Shown here one piece after another: positions 3,930-30,343 of a stretch of DNA of 48,685 bases (position 1 is its first letter; each line of letters opens with the position of its first letter). The DNA is from Nitrosomonadaceae bacterium. GTDB lineage: Bacteria; Pseudomonadota; Gammaproteobacteria; Burkholderiales; Nitrosomonadaceae. A program made the position numbers and the translations under genes. The stretch is taken from contig BJGV01000010.1 of assembly GCA_014190895.1 (NCBI GenBank), forward strand, positions 1 to 48,685. The letters run 5' to 3'. The notes beneath the pieces were generated by a model. It worked only from the letters and a program-made list of their open reading frames with translations. It was not told the origin of the DNA and searched no databases.

Positions 3930-3964
3930 AAACTAGCGGTATGAAGCATGCCGCTAGTTTTAAT
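3930..3964 (+). terminator. rplL-rpoB intergenic terminator/attenuator
   Basis: AAACTAGCGG (3930-3939) pairs perfectly with CCGCTAGTTT (3951-3960), and the stem can extend inward. A short T-rich tail follows. A partial terminator at this place is well known in E. coli, where it sets the ratio of stalk proteins to polymerase subunits. The short T run suggests partial rather than full termination. Confidence 0.65.
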
Positions 3965-4057
3965 TATTGAATATTTTAATTCTCGTTTACCTGTGATATT
4001 GGATGTGAAACATATTAGTTAGAAACAGAAATTTTGTTTTCTGCCCTCGGAGATTTT

Positions 4058-7000
4058 ATGAGCTATTCGTTTACAGAGAAAAAACGCATTCGTAAGAGCT
4101 TTGCTAAGCGTGCCAGCGTTTTACCAATTCCTTTTCTTCTTGCTACCCAGCTTGAATCGTACGCGGCTTTTTTACAAGCACAGGTTCCAGCTTCTCAAAG
4201 GGTTGATCAGGGATTGCAATTGGCATTTAAGTCCATCTTTCCAATTGAGAGCCATTCCAAAAACGCCCACCTTGATTTTATTAGCTATGTGCTTGGAGTT
4301 CCTCCATTCGATGTAAAAGAATGTCAGCAACGCGGACTCACCTATGCTTCTCCGCTACGCGCCAGAGTGCGATTAACAATTATGGATAAAGAGGCGTCCA
4401 AACCGACAACAAAAGAAATCAGGGAGCAGGAAGTATACATGGGAGAAATTCCTTTAATGACAAATACCGGTTCATTTGTTATTAATGGCACTGAGCGTGT
4501 GATTGTGTCGCAGTTGCATCGTTCACCTGGTGTATTTTTTGAACATGATCGAGGTAAAACTCATTCTTCTGGAAAGTTACTTTTTTCTTCGCGCATTATT
4601 CCGTATCGTGGTTCTTGGCTTGATTTTGAGTTTGATCCTAAGGATTGTATTTATTTCCGAGTAGATCGCCGCCGTAAAATGCCAATTACCATACTGCTAA
4701 AAGCTATAGGTTATACATCGGAACAGATTCTTGCGGGTTTTTTCTCATTTGATGTTTTTCATTTATCTAAGAAAGGTATTCAGTTTGAATTGATCCCAGA
4801 ACGTCTACGTGGAGATATCGCGCGCTTTGATATCGTTAACAAAAGTGGCAAAATTATTATTCAAAAAGACAAACGGATTACTATCAAACATATTCGTGAA
4901 TTGGAGCAAGGAGGTATTGAGAAAATTTCTGCACCAGAAGATTTTTTGTTGGGACGAGTTCTAGGTCACAATATAGTAGACAAAGAAACAGGCGAGTTCA
5001 TAGCTTTAGCTAATGACGAAATAACAGAGATTTTGTTTACCAGATTGCGTGAAGCTAACATTGAAAAATTTTATACTATTTACACTAATGATCTTGATCA
5101 AGGCGCATACATATCCCAAACATTACGGATAGATGAGACCGTTGATCAACTTACCGCTCAAACAGCAATTTACCGTATGATGCGCCCCGGCGAACCTCCG
5201 ACTGAGGAATCTGTGAAGTCACTATTCGGCGGATTATTTTATACCCCAGAACGTTATGACCTATCAGAAGTGGGACGGATGAAATTTAATCGTCGCGTGG
5301 GGAAAGTTGAGTTGACTGGCGCCACTATTTTATCGAATGAAGACATTATTGCTGTTATTAAAATTTTAGTGGATCTGCGCAATGGACGTGGTGAGATAGA
5401 TGATATTGATCATCTCGGTAATCGTCGTGTGCGTTATGTTGGCGAACTGGCAGAGAATCAATTTCGTTCTGGTTTAATTAGAGTTGAGAGGGCGGTAAAG
5501 GAGCGTTTAAATCAAGCAGAATCAGAGAATCTTATGCCACATGATTTAATTAACGCTAAACCAGTATCTGCAGCAGTGCGTGAGTTTTTTGGTTCAAGTC
5601 AACTGTCTCAATTTATGGATCAAACTAACCCGCTATCTGAAATTACCCATAAACGTCGTATTTCTGCTCTTGGGCCAGGTGGTCTGACACGTGAACGCGC
5701 AGGTTTTGAGGTGCGTGATGTACATCCAACTCACTATGGCCGATTGTGTCCGATTGAGACTCCAGAAGGCCCTAATATTGGCCTTATTAATTCACTTGCT
5801 ATTTACGCCCGAACCAATAGATACGGTTTTATGGAGACCCCTTACCGCAAGGTAAGAAACAGAAAAGTGACTGACGAGATTGATTATCTCTCAGCTATTG
5901 AGGAAGGACAATATATTATTGCGCAAGCGAACGCAGATTTGGATCGTTACAGTAAATTTGTCGATGATATTGTTTCTTGTCGTCATAAGAATGAGTTTGC
6001 TTTGATAACATCAGATCGTATCGAGTATATGGATGTAGCACCAGCACAAATTGTGTCGGTAGCGGCCTCGTTGATCCCATTTCTGGAGCATGATGACGCT
6101 AATCGTGCATTAATGGGTTCAAATATGCAACGTCAAGCCGTACCTTGTTTACGTGCCGAGAAGTCATTAGTGGGTACGGGTATTGAGCGTGTAGTAGCTG
6201 TAGATTCTGGTACCGCAGTACAGGCAATACGGGCTGGTGTTGTTGATTATGTAGACGCAGGGCGTATTGTAGTGAGAGTCCATGACGTAGAGACGCGTGT
6301 TGGCGAGATTGGTGTAGACATTTATAATCTAACTAAGTATACCCGCTCTAATCAGAATACTAATATAAACCAACGTCCGTTAGTAAAAATAGGAGATATT
6401 ATTGCCTGTGGTGACGTGGTTGCAGATGGCGCTTCCACCGATATGGGCGAACTAGCATTAGGGCAAAATATGCTGGTTGCATTTATGCCGTGGAATGGCT
6501 ACAACTTTGAGGATTCCATTCTTATTTCAGAACGTATTGTCTCGGAAGATCGGTTTACCTCTATTCATATTGAAGAGTTATCGGTAGTCAGTCGTGATAC
6601 CAAATTAGGGACTGAGGAGATCACCGGCGATATACCTAATTTGTCAGAGGGGCAACTTGGACGATTAGATGGTTCTGGTATTATTTATGTCGGCGCAGAG
6701 GTTGAGGCAGGTGATGTTTTAGTCGGTAAAGTGACGCCAAAAGGCGAAGTTCAGTTGACTCCAGAAGAAAAGCTTCTGCGTGCTATCTTTGGTGAAAAAG
6801 CTTCTGATGTAAAAGATACATCATTGCGCGTGCCATCAGGTATTTCCGGAACGGTCATTGATGTACAGGTATTCACTCGCGAAGGTATTGAGCGTGATAA
6901 ACGTGCTCAGCAGATCATTGATGATGAATTAAAGCGGTATAGAAAAGATTTGACAGATCAGATGCGAATTGTAGAGGCCGATGCATTCCAGCGCATTGAA

Positions 7001-8131
7001 CGACTACTAAAAGGTAAGGTAGCGACTGGTGGACCAAACAAACTTGTCAAGAATACACGTATCACCAAAGAGTATTTAGATGGCCTTGATCCACATCACT
7101 GGTTTGATATTAGATTGTCTAAAGAGGATACAAGCCTGCAATTAGAGGGAATAAAGGAAGTATTGACGCAGAAACGCAAAGCATTTGATGGTGCTTTTGA
7201 GGAGAAGAAAAAGAAACTCACCCAAGGAGATGCGCTGCTCCCTGGCGTACAAAAAATGGTTAAAGTTTATGTAGCAGTGAAGCGACGTTTGCAACCTGGA
7301 GATAAAATGGCAGGGCGTCATGGTAATAAAGGCGTGATTTCCAGAATTGTACCAGTTGAAGATATGCCATACATGGCCGATGGTACCCCAGTTGACGTTG
7401 TGTTGAATCCTTTAGGCGTGCCTTCGCGTATGAATGTTGGGCAGATACTTGAGATTCATTTAGGATGGGCGTCAAAGGGATTGGGAAAGAAGATTGCTGA
7501 TATGATTCATGCTCATAATAAAATAACTGAAATCAGAAAATTTTTAAATAAGATCTATAACAGTAGCGGCAAAAAAGAAGATATTGACTCGCTTGCCGAT
7601 GCAGAAATCTTAGACTTAGCTGAGAATTTAAAAGACGGCGTGCCTTTTGCTACGCCAGTTTTTGATGGCGCTACCGAGCATGAGATTAAAGACATGTTGG
7701 AACTTGCCGGTTTACCGCGATCCGGACAAATTAAGTTATTTGATGGAAGAACTGGGGAAGCTTTTGACCGCCCTGTTACGGTAGGTTACATGCATGTATT
7801 AAAATTGCATCATCTAGTGGATGACAAGATGCATGCGCGCTCTACTGGCCCATATAGTTTAGTAACTCAACAACCTTTGGGTGGTAAGGCTCAATTTGGG
7901 GGTCAACGATTTGGTGAGATGGAAGTGTGGGCTTTGGAAGCTTATGGTGCCGCATATACGCTGCAGGAAATGTTAACCGTGAAATCTGATGATGTGAATG
8001 GACGTACTAAGATATACGAAAGTATTGTCAAGGGCGATCATAAAATAGATGCTGGTATGCCAGAGTCATTCAACGTTTTGGTGAAAGAAATTCGTTCTCT
8101 GGGCATGGACATAGATTTGGATCGGCGTTAA
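4058..8131 (+). CDS. rpoB: DNA-directed RNA polymerase subunit beta
   Basis: The beta subunit forms one pincer of RNA polymerase and part of the active site. The 1357-residue product is full length for a proteobacterial RpoB. The rifampicin pocket starts near residue 512, with Asp521, His531 and Ser536 in the drug-sensitive wild-type pattern. [13 protein letters not shown] near residue 1083 is a conserved region close to the active centre. The C-terminal region with [20 protein letters not shown] is intact. The ATG at 4058 is chosen because GGAG lies seven bases upstream and the protein then begins [13 protein letters not shown] as in relatives; an ATG at 4034 would add eight residues. A 105-base gap with its own signals separates it from rpoC. 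Confidence 0.98.
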
Positions 8132-8144
8132 TGATTTACGTTTT

Positions 8145-8183
8145 AAAAATGTAGAGAGCAGAAATCAGCTCTCTACATTTTTT
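8145..8183 (+). terminator. Strong intrinsic terminator between rpoB and rpoC
   Basis: The stem arms at 8145-8159 (AAAAATGTAGAGAGC) and 8168-8182 pair perfectly over 15 bases around an 8-base loop. The 3' arm ends in six T residues (8178-8183), giving the A-tract/T-tract form of a classic intrinsic terminator. It begins 14 bases after the rpoB stop. Such a strong terminator inside rpoBC is unusual and is followed by a promoter-like sequence. Confidence 0.75.
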
Positions 8184-8211
8184 GACCACTTGACTGAATT
8201 ATTTTTATATT
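8182..8211 (+). promoter_or_regulatory. Candidate rpoC promoter
   Basis: TTGACC (8182-8187), an 18-base spacer and TATATT (8206-8211) match the sigma-70 pattern well. It starts at the end of the rpoB terminator and ends 25 bases before the rpoC ATG. A start site near 8218 would leave a short leader with the AGGAG ribosome site. It could restore rpoC transcription after termination. Confidence 0.5.
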
Positions 8212-8236
8212 GATCCCTGATTAACAGGAGCAGAAA

Positions 8237-11200
8237 ATGAAAGCGTTGCTTGATTTATTTAAACAAGTTACCCAGAAAGAAGACTTTGATTCAATTAAGA
8301 TTGGTCTTGCTTCCCCAGAGAAGATACGTTCTTGGTCTTACGGCGAAGTAAAGAAACCCGAGACTATCAACTATCGTACTTTTAAACCAGAGCGTGATGG
8401 GTTGTTCTGCGCTAAAATTTTTGGCCCAGTTAAAGATTACGAATGTCTGTGCGGTAAATACAAACGTCTTAAACATCGTGGTGTTATTTGTGAGAAATGT
8501 AGTGTTGAAGTTACTTTGTCTAAAGTGCGACGAGAGCGCATGGGACATATTGAGTTAGCTTCTCCAGTGGCGCACATCTGGTTTCTTAAATCATTACCGT
8601 CTCGTCTTGGCATGGTGCTAGACATGACCCTGCGTGATATTGAACGAGTGCTCTATTTCGAAGCTTACGTTGTAACTGACCCCGGCATGACCCCACTGAA
8701 TCGACGTCAGTTATTAACAGAAGATGATTATCTCGCTAAGACTGAAGAGTACGGGGATGATTTTCGTGCCATTATGGGTGCAGAGGGTATTCGTGACTTA
8801 TTAAGCAATATAGATATTCAAATGGAAATTGGTAATTTGCGACAAGAAATGGGGGCAACTAGTTCGGAAACCAAAATCAAGAAAATTTCTAAACGTCTAA
8901 AAATATTAGATGCGTTTAGTAAATCTGGAATTAAACCAGAGTGGATGGTGTTAACAGTTTTACCGGTATTACCGCCTGAATTGCGTCCCTTGGTGCCGTT
9001 AGATGGTGGTCGTTTTGCGACTTCCGATCTTAACGATTTATATCGTCGAGTTATTAATCGTAACAATCGTCTCAAGCGTCTGCTTGAACTTAAATCGCCT
9101 GAAATCATTGTGCGCAATGAAAAACGTATGCTACAAGAGGCGGTAGACTCTCTTTTAGACAATGGACGTCGTGGTAAAGCTATGACAGGTGCCAATAAAC
9201 GTCCACTTAAATCCCTTGCGGATATGATTAAAGGAAAGGGCGGGCGTTTCCGTCAAAATTTACTTGGTAAACGTGTTGATTACTCTGGGCGATCAGTAAT
9301 TGTAGTTGGCCCGCAACTTAAATTACATCAGTGTGGTCTACCGAAAAAAATGGCTTTGGAGTTGTTTAAACCATTTATTTTTAGCAGATTAGAAGCAATG
9401 AACATTGCCACCACTATTAAAGCAGCTAAACGAGAGGTGGAGAACGAAACTCCAATAGTATGGGATATCTTAGAGGATGTAATTCGTGAGCACCCAGTAA
9501 TGCTGAATAGAGCTCCAACGTTGCACCGTCTGGGTATTCAGGCATTTGAGCCTGTGTTGATTGAAGGCAAAGCTATTCAGTTACACCCCCTGGTATGCGC
9601 TGCATTTAATGCCGACTTTGATGGCGATCAAATGGCTGTGCATATTCCGTTGTCATTAGAAGCGCAAATGGAGTGCCGCACTCTGATGATGTCGACTAAT
9701 AATATTTTGTCGCCAGCTAATGGCGAACCAATTATTGTTCCGTCACAAGATATTGTTTTAGGCTTGTATTATGGTACTCGTGAGAGAATTGGTTCACGTG
9801 GCGAAGGCATGATTTTTTCTAATGTTAGTGAAGTGTCCCGTGCATACGAGAACCGTGTAGTTGAAATTAATGCCAGGGTCTTAGTTCGGATAAAAGAATA
9901 CGAAATAGATATCAGTGGCGAGTGCCATGAAAAAACTACGCGTTACGATACTACTGTTGGACGCGCGTTGTTGTCTGAAATATTACCTATCGGGTTACCT
10001 TTCTCGCTCATGAATAGAGCGCTAAAAAAGAAAGAGATTTCAAAACTTATTAATGCCAGTTTTCGTCGTTGTGGATTACGAAAAACTGTGATATTTGCAG
10101 ATAAATTGATGTATGCCGGTTTTACTTATGCTACCCGTGCTGGAATTTCAATCTGTCTAGATGACATGGTGACACCAATACAGAAGGGTGACATTATCTC
10201 TGCATCTGAGAAAGAAGTGCAAGAGATTGAATCTCAATATACTTCAGGTCTAGTGACGCAAGGCGAACGTTACAATAAGGTAGTAGATATCTGGAGTCGC
10301 GCTGGAGATCAGGTAGCTAAAGCTATGATGGATCAGCTTGGTGTTGAGCCCGTATTCGATTCTGCCGGCCAAATAAAGACAGACAAGAAAGGGAATCCGA
10401 TAACGCAGGAATCATTTAACTCCATTTACATGATGGCAGATTCCGGAGCCCGTGGTTCCGCAGCTCAGATTCGCCAGTTATCCGGTATGCGTGGTTTGAT
10501 GGCTAAGCCAGACGGGTCAATCATAGAGACGCCTATCACTGCAAATTTCCGTGAAGGATTGAATGTATTGCAGTATTTTATTTCTACTCATGGTGCCCGT
10601 AAAGGATTAGCTGACACTGCGCTAAAGACTGCAAACTCGGGTTATCTTACCCGTCGCCTAGTTGATGTGACTCAAGACCTAGTAGTGACTGAAGATGACT
10701 GCGGCACCAACAAAGGCGTAGTGATGAGGGCGTTAGTTGAGGGCGGTGAAATTATTGAGGCATTACATGAACGCATACTTGGACGAGTAACGACAGATGC
10801 AATCATTGATCCAAGAAATCAGGCGGAGATCTATCCTGCTGGCACTTTATTGGATGAGAATATCGTTGATCATATTGAATCTATGGGTATAGATGAGGTG
10901 AGGGTTCTTACACCGCTTACTTGTGAAACACGGTATGGGTTGTGTGCTAAATGTTATGGGCGCGATCTAGGACGTGGTACGCTAGTTAATGTAGGTGAAG
11001 CCGTGGGTGTTATTGCGGCGCAGTCTATTGGTGAACCGGGAACCCAACTCACGATGCGTACTTTTCATATTGGCGGCGCAGCTTCTAGAACTGCTGTAGC
11101 TAGTCAGGTGGAGAGTAAATCTAATGGCATGGCACGTTACTCATCTACAATGCGTTATGTGACTAATTCCCGTGGAGAATTAATAACAATTTCTCGTAGC

Positions 11201-12466
11201 GGTGAAGTAATTATAAACGATGACAACGGACGTGAGCGAGAACGTCATAAATCACCTTACGGCGCAACACTCATGATTCATGACGGGCAAACAGTAAAAG
11301 CAGGGCAGGTTCTCGCAACTTGGGATCCGCATACCCGTCCAATTGTAACGGAATATGCGGGTAATGTACGTTTTGAGAATGTCGAAGAGGGCGTCACTGT
11401 AGCTAAACAGATTGATGAAGTAACGGGTTTGTCTACACTGGTAGTTATAGATCCAAAACGACGAGGAGTATCTCAAGCAAAAGGTTTGCGTCCATTAGTA
11501 AAATTTTTAGACGAAAATGGGCAGGAAGTAAAAGTTGTTGGCGGCAAACTTCCGGTTAATATAACCTTTCAAACTAGTTCCATCATCACTGTACGTGACG
11601 GACAACAGGTAAGCGTAGGTGAGATACTGGCGAGAATTCCTCAAGAAACTTCGAAGACTCGTGATATTACCGGTGGTTTACCGCGTGTAGCAGAATTATT
11701 TGAAGCTCGCCCCCCTAAGGATGCTGGTGTGTTAGCGGAAGTTACTGGCTCCGTGTCATTTGGTAAAGATACGAAGGGTAAGCAACGTTTAATCATAACG
11801 GATTTAGACGGCGTCGCTCATGAGTACCTTATCCCTAAAGATAAGCATGTGACAGCACATGATGGTCAAGTAGTAAACAAGGGAGAGAGTATTGTCGATG
11901 GCCCCGCCGACCCACATGATATCTTACGTTTATTAGGAGTGGAGGCGTTAGCGCGCTACATAACAGATGAGGTGCAAGACGTTTATCGTTTACAGGGCGT
12001 AAGAATAAATGACAAACATATTGAGGTAATTGTACGTCAGATGTTACGTCGGGTACAGATTGTTAATGCTGGTGAGACTCATTTTATTTTAGGCGAACAG
12101 GTTGAACGCGCTGATTTATTATCAGAAAACGAGCGAATGATAGCTGAGGGCAAAGAAATTGCATTGTACGAATTTATGTTGCTTGGCATCACCAAGGCAT
12201 CACTTTCTACAGATTCATTCATTTCAGCTGCTTCATTCCAAGAGACCACACGCGTATTAACCGAAGCGGCTATTATGGGTAAGAGAGATAATCTACGGGG
12301 TCTTAAAGAGAATGTTATTGTTGGGCGCCTTATTCCAGCAGGCACCGGCCTAACTTCCCATAATCGTATTAGAAAACAAAGACTTGGTTTGGATGCTCGT
12401 GACAGTTATAGTTTGGGTGCGGCGAGTATAAAGGAGGCGGAGAATAGTGAGTCCATTACACAGTGA
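8237..12466 (+). CDS. rpoC: DNA-directed RNA polymerase subunit beta'
   Basis: The beta' subunit carries the catalytic centre of RNA polymerase and the clamp. The 1409-residue product has the N-terminal zinc site Cys70, Cys72, Cys85 and Cys88. The Mg-binding motif [12 protein letters not shown] has Asp460, Asp462 and Asp464, the same numbers as in E. coli. A second zinc site is near residue 895 ([14 protein letters not shown]). The ATG at 8237 follows AGGAG. In most betaproteobacteria rpsL-rpsG-fusA-tuf comes next; here a terminator and the pst genes follow. Confidence 0.98.
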
Positions 12467-12747: not shown

Positions 12748-13680
12748 GTGATCAAAAAATCTCTTAGTAAAACAGAAGAATCAGGAAGGCTAGGATATAG
12801 TCACCGTCGACATTTACACGAGCGTCTTATTGAAATAACCCTGTTTTTAACAGCATTTTTCTCAGTTGCGGTTACGCTGGCTATTGTAGTTATGTTAGCA
12901 AAGGAATCGTTTGTATTTTTTCAGCATGTTTCCATTCTTGATTTTCTTACTGATACTCAATGGACGCCGTTATTTGATGATGCGCATTATGGCATACGCC
13001 CACTTATCTCCGGTACTTTGGTAAGCTCTCTAATAGCATCTGTGATCGCAATTCCTCTTGGCACTGTAATCGCCATATATTTATCAGAATTTGCATCTTT
13101 TTCCGTACGTGAAATAGCCAAACCTTTTCTCGAGCTATTGGGTGGGGTACCTACTGTCGTATATGGTTATTTTGCGCTGCTATTTATTACACCTCTATTA
13201 CAAAAAATATTTCCGGAGTTACCTGGATTTAGTTTACTTTCTGCTGGATTGGTAATGGGGCTTATGATCATCCCTTATATTAGTTCAATGTCTGAGGATG
13301 CAATGCGTGCAGTTCCAATGAGTTTGCGCGAGGGTTCTTATGCGATGGGCGCAACAAGTTTTCAGACTGCGATACGAGTGGTAATGCCCTCAGCTTTCTC
13401 TGGCATTGCTGCGGCATATATTCTTGGTATTTCTCGTGCAGTTGGCGAGACTATGGTCGTGGCAATAGCAGCTGGTATGCAGCCAAATCTCACTTGGAAT
13501 CCGATGGAACCAGCGGCCACTATCACTGCTTACATTGTGCAAGTGAGTCTAGGCGATCTGCCCCATGGTAGTATCGGTTACCAGACAATCTTTGCCGCTG
13601 GGTTTACATTACTTTTGATAACCCTCGTGTTTAATATTATTGGTCATATTTTACGCGAGAGATACCGTCAAATTTATTGA
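12748..13680 (+). CDS. pstC: Phosphate ABC transporter permease PstC
   Basis: PstC is one of the two inner-membrane permeases of the high-affinity phosphate importer PstSCAB. The 310-residue product has about six transmembrane segments, the first near residues 30-55. It has the permease EAA-type loop near residue 200 (SLREGSYAMGATSFQTAIRV) that docks onto PstB. The start is GTG at 12748; no good ribosome site is visible, so the exact N-terminus is uncertain. A Pho-box array lies just upstream. pstS, usually the first gene, is absent here, and pstA follows after 72 bases. Confidence 0.93.
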   Translation: MIKKSLSKTEESGRLGYSHRRHLHERLIEITLFLTAFFSVAVTLAIVVMLAKESFVFFQHVSILDFLTDTQWTPLFDDAHYGIRPLISGTLVSSLIASVIAIPLGTVIAIYLSEFASFSVREIAKPFLELLGGVPTVVYGYFALLFITPLLQKIFPELPGFSLLSAGLVMGLMIIPYISSMSEDAMRAVPMSLREGSYAMGATSFQTAIRVVMPSAFSGIAAAYILGISRAVGETMVVAIAAGMQPNLTWNPMEPAATITAYIVQVSLGDLPHGSIGYQTIFAAGFTLLLITLVFNIIGHILRERYRQIY

Positions 13681-13752
13681 TGTTATCCCCGGTTATAAAT
13701 TTTAAACCTTGGATATTTTGATAGAAATGTTTAATTTTAAACTGCCAATTTA

Positions 13753-14679
13753 ATGAGAGCCACTGATAATCTCAATGAAATTCGTGCCATCATTGCACGC
13801 CATAAATTTTTTAACTCTGTATTTAGGGTTGTTGGCGCATTTGCATTAATGATCGGAGTGTTTACATTTATAGGGCTGTTTTCTTACATGTTAATTGATG
13901 GAGCGCCTCGTTTGTCGTGGGATTTTTTTACCTCATTTCCATCACGTCGTCCAGGTTCTGCAGGCATATTATCAGCCTGGGTTGGAACAATTCTAGTGAT
14001 GTTGGTGACAGCCGCTGCCGCTATACCTGTAGGCGTAGCGGCAGGTATTTATCTAGAAGAGTATTCTCCTAGAAATTTTTTCACTGAGATAATAGAAATT
14101 AACATAACCAATCTTTCCGGGGTCCCATCAATTATCTATGGTCTCTTGGCACTAAGCTTATTTGTATATCAATTTGGATTTGGTCAGAGCATTTTGTCAG
14201 CAGGATTAGCCTTAGCTCTCCTGATTCTACCAATAGGGATTGTTGCCACTCGTGAATCCATTCGGAGCATTCCTGTGGCTATTCGTGAAGGTGCCTATGC
14301 TCTTGGGGCAACCAAATGGCAGACTGTTTCTGATCATATACTCCCCTATTCTGCGGCAGGTATTTTAACTGGTATTATCATTGGTTTGGCCCGTGCAATT
14401 GGTGAAACTGCACCTATCATAACAATAGGCGCGTTAACCTTTATTGCCTTCTTGCCACCATCACTCATCAAGACCGACCCTCCTTTCTTATCTTTTGAAT
14501 GGCTAATGGCACCATTCACCGTTATGCCAATTCAGATGTTTAATTGGGTTTCGCGACCAGAGGAAGCGTTTCAGATTAATGCAGCAGCGGCGGGATTAAT
14601 TTTGGTGATAATGACTCTTACCATGAATGGATTGGCTATCTATCTTCGATATCGTATGCGTAAGAATATCAAATGGTAA
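13753..14679 (+). CDS. pstA: Phosphate ABC transporter permease PstA
   Basis: PstA is the second permease of the phosphate importer and pairs with PstC in the inner membrane. The 308-residue product has six hydrophobic segments, the first near residues 25-50. The coupling loop is [20 protein letters not shown] near residue 178, followed by [12 protein letters not shown]. The ATG at 13753 has no strong ribosome site. The stop codon TAA lies inside the first possible pstB start (ATGGTAA), so the two genes are coupled. Confidence 0.94.
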
Positions 14680-15485
14680 AAGATCTTATGACGTCGCCGA
14701 GTGCTAACACAGATAAAGATTTACAGCTGTGTAAGGCTGAAGTTAAGAATTTGAGTTTTCATTATGGTACATTCAATGCACTGAAGAATGTTAGCATGAT
14801 AGTGCATGAGAAAAAAGTGACCGCACTTATTGGCCCATCTGGCTGTGGTAAATCTACTCTTCTGCGTTGTTTCAATCGCATGCATGATCTGTACCCTGGC
14901 AACCGTTATACAGGTGACATTATCCTATACCCGGATAATGTTAATATTCTTTCTTCTGTTGTGGATCCAATAGAAGTACGCATGCGTATTAGCATGGTGT
15001 TTCAGAAACCCAATCCGTTCCCAAAATCTATTTACGAGAATGTTGCTTATGGTTTGAGAGTAAGGGGTATAAAAAAACGTTCTATACTTGATGAGAAAAT
15101 AGAGGAAGCCTTGCGTAATGCGGCATTATGGGATGAAGTAAAGGATCGTATGAATCAACTCGCTTTTAATCTTTCTGGCGGCCAACAGCAGCGTCTGTGT
15201 ATCGCGCGCGCACTTGCTACCGATCCAGAAATTCTGCTATTTGACGAGCCCACCTCAGCACTTGACCCTATTGCTACTGCCAGCATTGAAGAACTAATAT
15301 CCGATCTAAAAAATAAAGTTACCATTCTCATCGTGACTCATAACATGCAGCAAGCCGCACGAGTTTCTGATTATACGGCTTATATGTATATAGGTGAGTT
15401 GATTGAATTTGGCATTACCGACACTATCTTCATAAAACCAAAAAATCAAAAGACAGAGGACTACATTACCGGACGTTTTGGTTAA
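14673..15485 (+). CDS. pstB: Phosphate ABC transporter ATP-binding protein PstB
   Basis: PstB is the cytoplasmic ATPase that powers phosphate import through PstCA. The 270-residue product has Walker [10 protein letters not shown] (residues 54-62), the ABC signature LSGGQQQR (167-174), Walker B ILLFDEP (187-193) and the switch histidine in THNMQQA (His223). From the first ATG, which overlaps the pstA stop by seven bases, it is slightly longer than usual. A second ATG at 14688 would give 265 residues and is equally plausible. phoU, which often follows, is absent; 285 bases without a gene separate it from tpiA. Confidence 0.95.
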
Positions 15486-28858: not shown

Positions 28859-30343
28859 ATGTTGTTTGACTTCTCCTTATTAAGTCTTGTCATTTGGCTG
28901 CCAATTTTCGTTGGCATTGCAATACTGACTATTAATGATGATCGTAATGCTCAGCTGATAAAGTGGTTGGCGCTTATTGGTTCATTAGCGGGACTATTGG
29001 TAGCGATTCCACTTTACACTCGATTTGATCCTATAGTGAGCAGCATGCAATTTGTTGAGTATCGTGTTTGGATTGAACGTTTTAACGTTCACTATCATCT
29101 GGGTGTAGATGGCATCTCTATGCCATTAATTTTACTGAATTGCTTTACTACTCCATTGGTAATTATAGCTGGATGGCGGGTAATAAATAAACGAATATCT
29201 CAATATATGGGCGCATTTCTTATTATGTCGGGTATCGTGAATGGCGTGTTCTCATCGCTCGACGCAATTCTGTTTTATATTTTTTGGGAGGCATCGCTAA
29301 TACCCATGTTTCTTATTATTGGTATTTGGGGCGGCCCCAACCGTGTTTATGCAGCAATTAAATTCTTTCTCTACACATTACTTGGCTCATTACTAATGTT
29401 GATAGCATTTATTTACCTATATAGAATTTCTGGCGGTAGCTTTTCGATACTTGACTATCATAAGTTGCCATTACCTTTAGTTTCGCAGATTTTTATATTT
29501 ATTGCTTTTTTTCTAGCATTTGCCGTCAAAGTACCAATGTGGCCAGTGCATACTTGGCTTCCAGATGCTCACGTTGAGGCGCCTACGGGCGGATCAATCG
29601 TGTTAGCTGCAATTTTATTAAAGTTGGGTGGGTATGGTTTTATACGCTTCTCTCTGCCTATCGTACCAGATGCTAGTCACTATCTCTCTGACATGATGAT
29701 AGTGTTGTCATTAATTGCAGTTGTATACATCGGATTGATTGCATTAGTGCAGGCAGACATGAAAAAACTCATAGCTTATTCATCTGTATCGCATATGGGA
29801 TTCGTTACATTGGGTCTATTTTTATTTAATGTTTACGGAGTAGAAGGAGCGATGGTGCAGATGATCTCACATGGTTTTATTTCGGGTGCGATGTTTTTCT
29901 GTGTGGGAGTAATGTACGATCGACTCCATAGTCGGCAGATTGCCGACTATGGAGGGGTGGTTAGCAAGATGCCGGTCTTCGCCGCGTTTTTTATGTTATT
30001 TTCTATGGCTAATGCTGGATTGCCCGGCACCAGCGGTTTTGTTGGAGAATTTATGGTCATAATGGCAGCAATCAAGATAAATTTTTGGTATGCTTTTTTT
30101 GCTGCCAGCACGTTAATCTTTGGTGCAGCCTATACTCTATGGATGTACAAAAGAGTAGTATTTGGCACGGTAACTAACCCTAATGTAAATCAGTTAGAAG
30201 ATGTCACTGGAAGGGAAGTATTAATATTGACAATCTTGGCAGCAATGGTTCTATGGGTGGGACTCTATCCATTACCATTGACAGAAGTGATGCATGTCAC
30301 AGTAGATAATTTATTAGCACATATAGCACGTAGTAAACTGTGA
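28859..30343 (+). CDS. nuoM: NADH-quinone oxidoreductase subunit M
   Basis: NuoM is the second antiporter-like pump of complex I. The 494-residue product is full length and very hydrophobic. It has FYIFWEASLIPMFLIIGIWG near residue 138 and the ion-channel segment KVPMWPVHTWLPDAHVEAPT near residue 225. It starts at ATG 28859 after an 82-base gap that holds A-rich and T-rich runs but no stable stem. Confidence 0.97.
   Translation: MLFDFSLLSLVIWLPIFVGIAILTINDDRNAQLIKWLALIGSLAGLLVAIPLYTRFDPIVSSMQFVEYRVWIERFNVHYHLGVDGISMPLILLNCFTTPLVIIAGWRVINKRISQYMGAFLIMSGIVNGVFSSLDAILFYIFWEASLIPMFLIIGIWGGPNRVYAAIKFFLYTLLGSLLMLIAFIYLYRISGGSFSILDYHKLPLPLVSQIFIFIAFFLAFAVKVPMWPVHTWLPDAHVEAPTGGSIVLAAILLKLGGYGFIRFSLPIVPDASHYLSDMMIVLSLIAVVYIGLIALVQADMKKLIAYSSVSHMGFVTLGLFLFNVYGVEGAMVQMISHGFISGAMFFCVGVMYDRLHSRQIADYGGVVSKMPVFAAFFMLFSMANAGLPGTSGFVGEFMVIMAAIKINFWYAFFAASTLIFGAAYTLWMYKRVVFGTVTNPNVNQLEDVTGREVLILTILAAMVLWVGLYPLPLTEVMHVTVDNLLAHIARSKL

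Follow-up and report, generated by a model that had tools for sequence, protein, structure and literature searches.

We found that the 105-nt spacer between rpoB and rpoC (8132-8236; last base of rpoB 8131, first base of rpoC 8237) carries a real and strong hairpin that is terminator-like, lineage-specific and unusually placed, and that the rpoC promoter proposed behind it is not clearly above chance. Our preferred reading, to which we give a probability of roughly 0.48, is that the hairpin may act as a lineage-specific partial intrinsic terminator (attenuator) after rpoB, with rpoC served by read-through. The window, by which we mean the whole 48,685-nt stretch of DNA that was analysed, is one whole contig of a 1.32-Mb genome in 25 contigs, rated 99.97% complete. 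The features on which the argument turns are collected in Table 1.

Table 1. Features of the rpoB-rpoC region, in coordinates of the window.
Feature	Position	Strand	Remarks
rplL-rpoB intercistronic hairpin	3930-3960 (scored 3933-3957)	+	d = 27.5; located where E. coli has its known attenuator; used as internal reference
rpoB (RNA polymerase beta)	4034-8131	+	1365 aa from the first TTG; NCBIfam TIGR02013, 1843.8 bits
rpoB-rpoC intercistronic hairpin	8145-8182	+	perfect 15-bp stem, 8145-8159 / 8168-8182; loop 8160-8167
Same hairpin read as an intrinsic terminator	8150-8183	+, also terminator-like on -	10-bp stem, 8150-8159 / 8168-8177, plus T6
Promoter-like match TTGACC-N18-TATATT	8182-8211	+	10/12 match; TTGACC 8182-8187, TATATT 8206-8211; unsupported as a promoter
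Mini-hairpin CCTG-ATTAA-CAGG	8216-8230	+	overlaps the rpoC Shine-Dalgarno AGGAG; family-conserved
rpoC (RNA polymerase beta')	8237-12466	+	1409 aa; NCBIfam TIGR02386, 1801.6 bits

An earlier note on this DNA had described a perfect 15-base stem followed by a T6 tail right after rpoB. Both the stem and the T6 are present. The stem begins 13 nt past the rpoB stop codon, consists of Watson-Crick pairs only and encloses a loop of 8 bases. However, the T6 (8178-8183) is not a separate tail, since the 3' arm of the stem ends in five of these T's, which pair with AAAAA. If the stem is instead taken as the 10-bp core, T occupies 6 of the first 8 positions directly after it, which gives the U-tract of an intrinsic terminator. 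The hairpin was absent from the output of an automated terminator scan, we think because the scan takes the T's into the stem. Predicted folding energies were -15.6 kcal/mol for the core (8150-8177), -20.4 kcal/mol for the 39-nt element (z = -6.8) and -27.9 kcal/mol for the whole spacer (z = -4.65), and for neither of the latter two did any of 200 shuffles fold as well. The window has 11 perfect stems of at least 9 bp (loops of 3-12); none is longer than that of this hairpin, which exceeds chance. The stem core has one exact copy in the genome, and a BLAST search of eight genus genomes gave no other strong match, so that a dispersed repeat or uptake sequence was rejected. None of the four best weak matches in the genus genomes carries a terminator-like hairpin; of the two for which ORFs were listed, one lies upstream of a 292-aa ORF and the other inside a 468-aa ORF.

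To place the hairpin on a common scale, we used a terminator score, d, computed by what we take to be the formula of d'Aubenton-Carafa. On this scale the rpoB-rpoC hairpin reaches 28.3 on the + strand and 22.3 on the - strand, level with the hairpin before rpoB, so that the operon contains two strong terminator-like sites 4.2 kb apart. After these two, the best value on the + strand of the window is 7.8; on the - strand, a further site that lies within a called gene in antisense orientation reaches 18.0. The genome background was taken from a sample made up of the window and twelve 20-kb stretches, 288.7 kb in all and scanned on both strands. Thresholds of d>20, d>10 and d>0 were exceeded there by 13, 32 and 70 site-strands, respectively, compared with 2, 9 and 39 (maximum 22.3) in a Markov control of 288 kb read on one strand. 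Doubling for two strands gives expectations of 4, 18 and 78, and thus only the strong sites are above chance; at d>0 the genome sample shows no excess over shuffles (70 from both strands, 39 from the single control strand). The rpoB-rpoC hairpin is among the strongest sites of the sample and not the strongest, six other places scoring at least 28.3, one of them inside a called ORF. Nine of the 81 codirectional spacers of 45-260 nt in the sample fold at p<=0.05, and by folding z the rpoB-rpoC spacer ranks second and the rplL-rpoB spacer third. A stronger fold than that of rpoB-rpoC (z = -8.5) was seen in the codirectional spacer L220:12016-12194, within which positions 12042-12057 are terminator-like on both strands (d = 17.9).

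Comparison with the rpoB-rpoC gap of related genomes had been proposed as a check on the terminator, and here the signal proved not to be conserved. The family compared is probably Nitrosomonadaceae, judging from the ammonia monooxygenase family PF02461, which 13 of 37 related genomes match, and from the best named hit, a Nitrosomonadales MAG. We matched rpoC in 113 of 125 family genomes and read 112 spacers, one genome being left out; after removal of two duplicates and one spacer of 15 nt, 109 distinct spacers remained. Only 23 of these fold at p<=0.05, while 86 do not. Scores above 0 were obtained in 8 spacers and above 10 in 4, and d>20 was found in the window only (1/109). In the five relatives of the same genus whose spacer could be read, d ranges from -31.5 to -39.1. 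Upstream of its last ~35 nt, the spacer varies freely in the family. We applied the same scorer to the rplL-rpoB spacers of 20 chosen relatives (of 111) and of the window, and observed d>0 in 17/21 and d>10 in 12/21; in this set two relatives are identical, and the scored hairpin of L239 lies farther downstream than the one after rplL. Since d>0 holds in 17/21 spacers at rplL-rpoB versus 8/109 at rpoB-rpoC, relatives retain a terminator-like hairpin before rpoB but not before rpoC. By this comparison, the terminator-like rpoB-rpoC hairpin is lineage-specific.

Outside the family, a hairpin at this junction is common. The 103 loci considered, whose non-family status is as given by the search that found them, were reduced to 59 (45-260 nt) by excluding 43 spacers below 45 nt and one of 471 nt. 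More than half of the 59 (32) fold better than their shuffles at p<=0.05, with a mean z of -2.13 over the set, but only 4 have d>0; d>20 was reached in 2, both with broken T tails. Between rpoB and rpoC, therefore, a hairpin is nothing out of the ordinary, whereas one with a T6 is. The strong stem of the window lies at the same place past the rpoB stop as these non-family hairpins and differs from them in its T-run; the E. coli K-12 junction, inspected by eye, has a 9-bp stem with one G-T pair and no T-run. The excess of folding spacers, 32/59 versus 9/81, is suggestive only, the 9/81 background coming from a different genome. That U-less hairpins occur in over half of the longer non-family spacers examined provides a comparative frame for the junction. 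The strongest fold of the 59 belongs to L001, a Nitrosomonadales MAG placed provisionally outside the family by the search. At four loci (L001, L052, L059 and L131), the rpoB-rpoC spacer is a string of short repeats that fold into hairpins of great length, with z from -5 to -9.

These comparisons bear on an explanation that we regard as possible, though rather unlikely, namely that the window carries a general intercistronic hairpin with a role in the mRNA. Such a hairpin would protect the rpoB 3' end or serve as a cleavage site for RNase III or RNase E, letting the rpoB and rpoC messages decay apart, and the T6 would be incidental and cause little termination. The frequency of U-less hairpins at non-family junctions, the E. 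coli stem and the 23 folding family spacers all speak for it, as does the presence of RNase III and RNase E/G family proteins among those encoded in the genome. Against it, the window hairpin does carry a T6 and equals the rplL-rpoB hairpin in score, the 86 family spacers without a fold mean that no such hairpin is kept family-wide, and the 43 spacers below 45 nt among the 103 non-family loci point the same way.

Partial termination that tunes the ratio of the two subunits, which the earlier note had offered as an option, is the best-supported reading on account of the score of the hairpin, which is like that of the rplL-rpoB hairpin, and of the rarity of such strong sites in the genome sample, and it is weakened by the absence of conservation. 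As we envisage the attenuator, RNA polymerase would transcribe through rpoB and the ribosome would release at the rpoB stop, upstream of the stem. The GAGAGC/GCTCTC hairpin would then form, and a share of the polymerases would come off within the T6, near 8183. The remaining polymerases would read into rpoC, which would be served by the upstream promoters and have none of its own, and the rpoC Shine-Dalgarno (AGGAG), lying in a small family-conserved hairpin, would then set beta' translation. The partial terminator would be built on a common intercistronic hairpin, one with a U-tract in this lineage. From the sequence we infer termination, its partial extent and compensation by translation alike; that termination would be partial is suggested by the named promoter not clearly exceeding chance, and since rpoC must be transcribed, read-through is the simpler source of its mRNA.

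Several points count against the partial terminator. Beta and beta' assemble one to one, equal amounts of the two should be useful, and an attenuator at this place would lower beta'. The family comparison, with d>20 in a single spacer, also weakens it, as does the T-A pair that closes the core stem beside a tract only six long. The six other places of the sample with equal or higher scores and the lack of excess among weak sites count against it too. If a real terminator does separate rpoB from rpoC, some bacteria would balance the two subunits otherwise, for example by translation or turnover.

We observed a second structure at the end of the spacer, where the last ~35 nt before rpoC are conserved in the family and end in CCTG-N5-CAGGAG. 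The full 4-bp helix (4/4 pairs) is possible in 84 of 99 distinct family leaders, versus 11% with shuffled upstream letters, and is missing in 15, and the GG(A/G) core has a mean predicted pairing of 0.75, compared with 0.62 in the control, with 82/99 leaders above their own control, all of these statistics being inflated by the relatedness of the leaders. The CCTGATNNACAGGAG pattern has one occurrence in the genome. The mini-hairpin may control the translation of rpoC. An extended form of the partial terminator, which we consider unlikely, would give beta:beta' two layers of control: the attenuator would lower rpoC mRNA, and the family-wide Shine-Dalgarno hairpin would tune or autoregulate beta' translation and so bring the two subunits back into balance. 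In that case, one streamlined lineage related to ammonia oxidisers would no longer set beta and beta' by one message.

The earlier note had further suggested that rpoC might have its own promoter, TTGACC-N18-TATATT. The letters are there, at a 10/12 match, but do not clearly exceed chance, and the hexamers are not conserved. A promoter scan of 20 kb returned 39 such sites versus 53.2 +/- 7.7 in shuffles, the match before rpoC being one of three 10/12 sites on the + strand. In the 105-nt spacer alone, the 1 promoter-like site compares with a shuffle mean of 0.2 (sd 0.5), which favours a promoter, and 10/12 was reached in 4 of 100 shuffles of this spacer. For the family, we used the 100 of 109 spacers that are at least 60 nt long; the observed and expected numbers of matches were 57 versus 49.7 at 8/12, 13 versus 15.8 at 9/12 and 2 versus 2.7 at 10/12. 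The TATATT column is a U-rich stretch, in which the family mostly reads TTTATTGC or TTGTATCGA, and neither window hexamer was found to be kept in the family relatives in which conservation was sought. Hexamers resembling a -10 element (at least 5/6) pile up 31-36 nt before rpoC, with 28 occurrences in the 100 family spacers, versus 2/100 (window included) at the position of the window TATATT, 25 nt before rpoC. Similarly, 9 of the 13 family matches that reach 9/12 have their end 30-34 nt upstream of rpoC. This pile-up, in a conserved AT-rich stretch, could reflect a promoter, a translation enhancer or plain homology, and relatedness may account for the clustering. Some spacer promoter, other than the hexamers of the window, may exist in relatives.

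A full terminator followed by an rpoC promoter, of which TTGACC-N18-TATATT would be one example, with a start near 8218 and beta' transcribed separately, is quite improbable in our view. What speaks for it is the quality of the match at 18-nt spacing, the single site in so short a spacer, the clustered -10-like hexamers of the family (which relatedness may explain) and the internal promoter of the E. coli operon, although in the available text of PMC3946193 that promoter is sited between rplL and rpoB. Besides the match totals, the arguments against it are that the window hexamers are not conserved and lie off the family's clustered position, that the -35 TTGACC shares the final two T's of the T6 with the terminator tail, and that transcription starting near 8218 would give a leader of 19 nt and truncate the mini-hairpin in its 5' arm (8216-8219). 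A neutral or chance palindrome without effect is the least probable reading: it would fit a lineage-specific hairpin in a freely varying part of the family spacer, but across 20 Markov-shuffled windows no perfect stem was longer than 13 bp, the upstream part of the spacer folds with z = -7.0, and one would expect the polymerase to respond to a strong hairpin with a T6 in this position.

The closest known counterpart of the proposed attenuator is that in the rplL-rpoB spacer of E. coli, which Barry et al. (1980, cited in PMC5371410) reportedly described. It belongs to the same operon, is an intercistronic hairpin with a T-tract soon past a stop codon, and has a counterpart of equal score in the window. 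It differs in that it precedes rpoB, separates the ribosomal proteins from the polymerase and is terminator-scoring in most of the family spacers compared, whereas the rpoB-rpoC hairpin separates beta from beta' and is lineage-specific. The available text of PMC4670729 likewise places an attenuator in rplL-rpoB of the rplKAJL-rpoBC operon. Internal operon terminators (ioTTS) set RNA polymerase subunit levels in the RP-RNAP operons of Methanococcus maripaludis (PMC10450193, in the part available). There, too, partial termination inside an operon sets the amounts of polymerase subunits, which for rpoB-rpoC is only proposed. These cases are archaeal and reduced in an aCPSF1 mutant, the element tested consists of T-rich tracts and not of a bacterial hairpin terminator, and the cases precede the small subunits rpoP, rpoF and rpoNK (PMC10450193).

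In E. coli, the three promoters assigned to the operon drive one gene pair each (rplKA, rplJL and rpoBC), and the presence of rpoB and rpoC in one operon serves as an example of subunit synthesis in like amounts (PMC12083536, available text). No promoter between rpoB and rpoC is named in the available parts of PMC12083536 or PMC3946193. Among the matches listed for the open-licence literature, by titles and abstract openings, there was no report of a bacterial rpoB-rpoC terminator or promoter; the phrase "between rpoB and rpoC" occurs in one listed paper, PMC5660063, on mycobacterial typing.

The genome also encodes Rho. At gathering scores, Rfam models matched only two tRNAs in the whole window. 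The usual cluster after rpoC is rpsL-rpsG-fusA; in the window, where gene order was read, rpoC is without this neighbour cluster and is followed on its 3' side by pstC-pstA-pstB (12748-15485). Ammonia monooxygenase subunits (PF02461, PF04744) were sought in the genome and none was found. Matches were present in 3 of 7 same-genus relatives for PF02461 and in 4 of 7 for PF04744 (one of them a fragment), and PF02461, the ammonia monooxygenase family, was seen in 13 of 37 related genomes. Their absence here reflects either gene loss or a collapsed multicopy locus that was dropped from the assembly. Finally, at 29924-29954 the window contains a perfect 14-bp hairpin with 8 G-C pairs, CTCCATAGTCGGCA...TGCCGACTATGGAG, which has no T-run.
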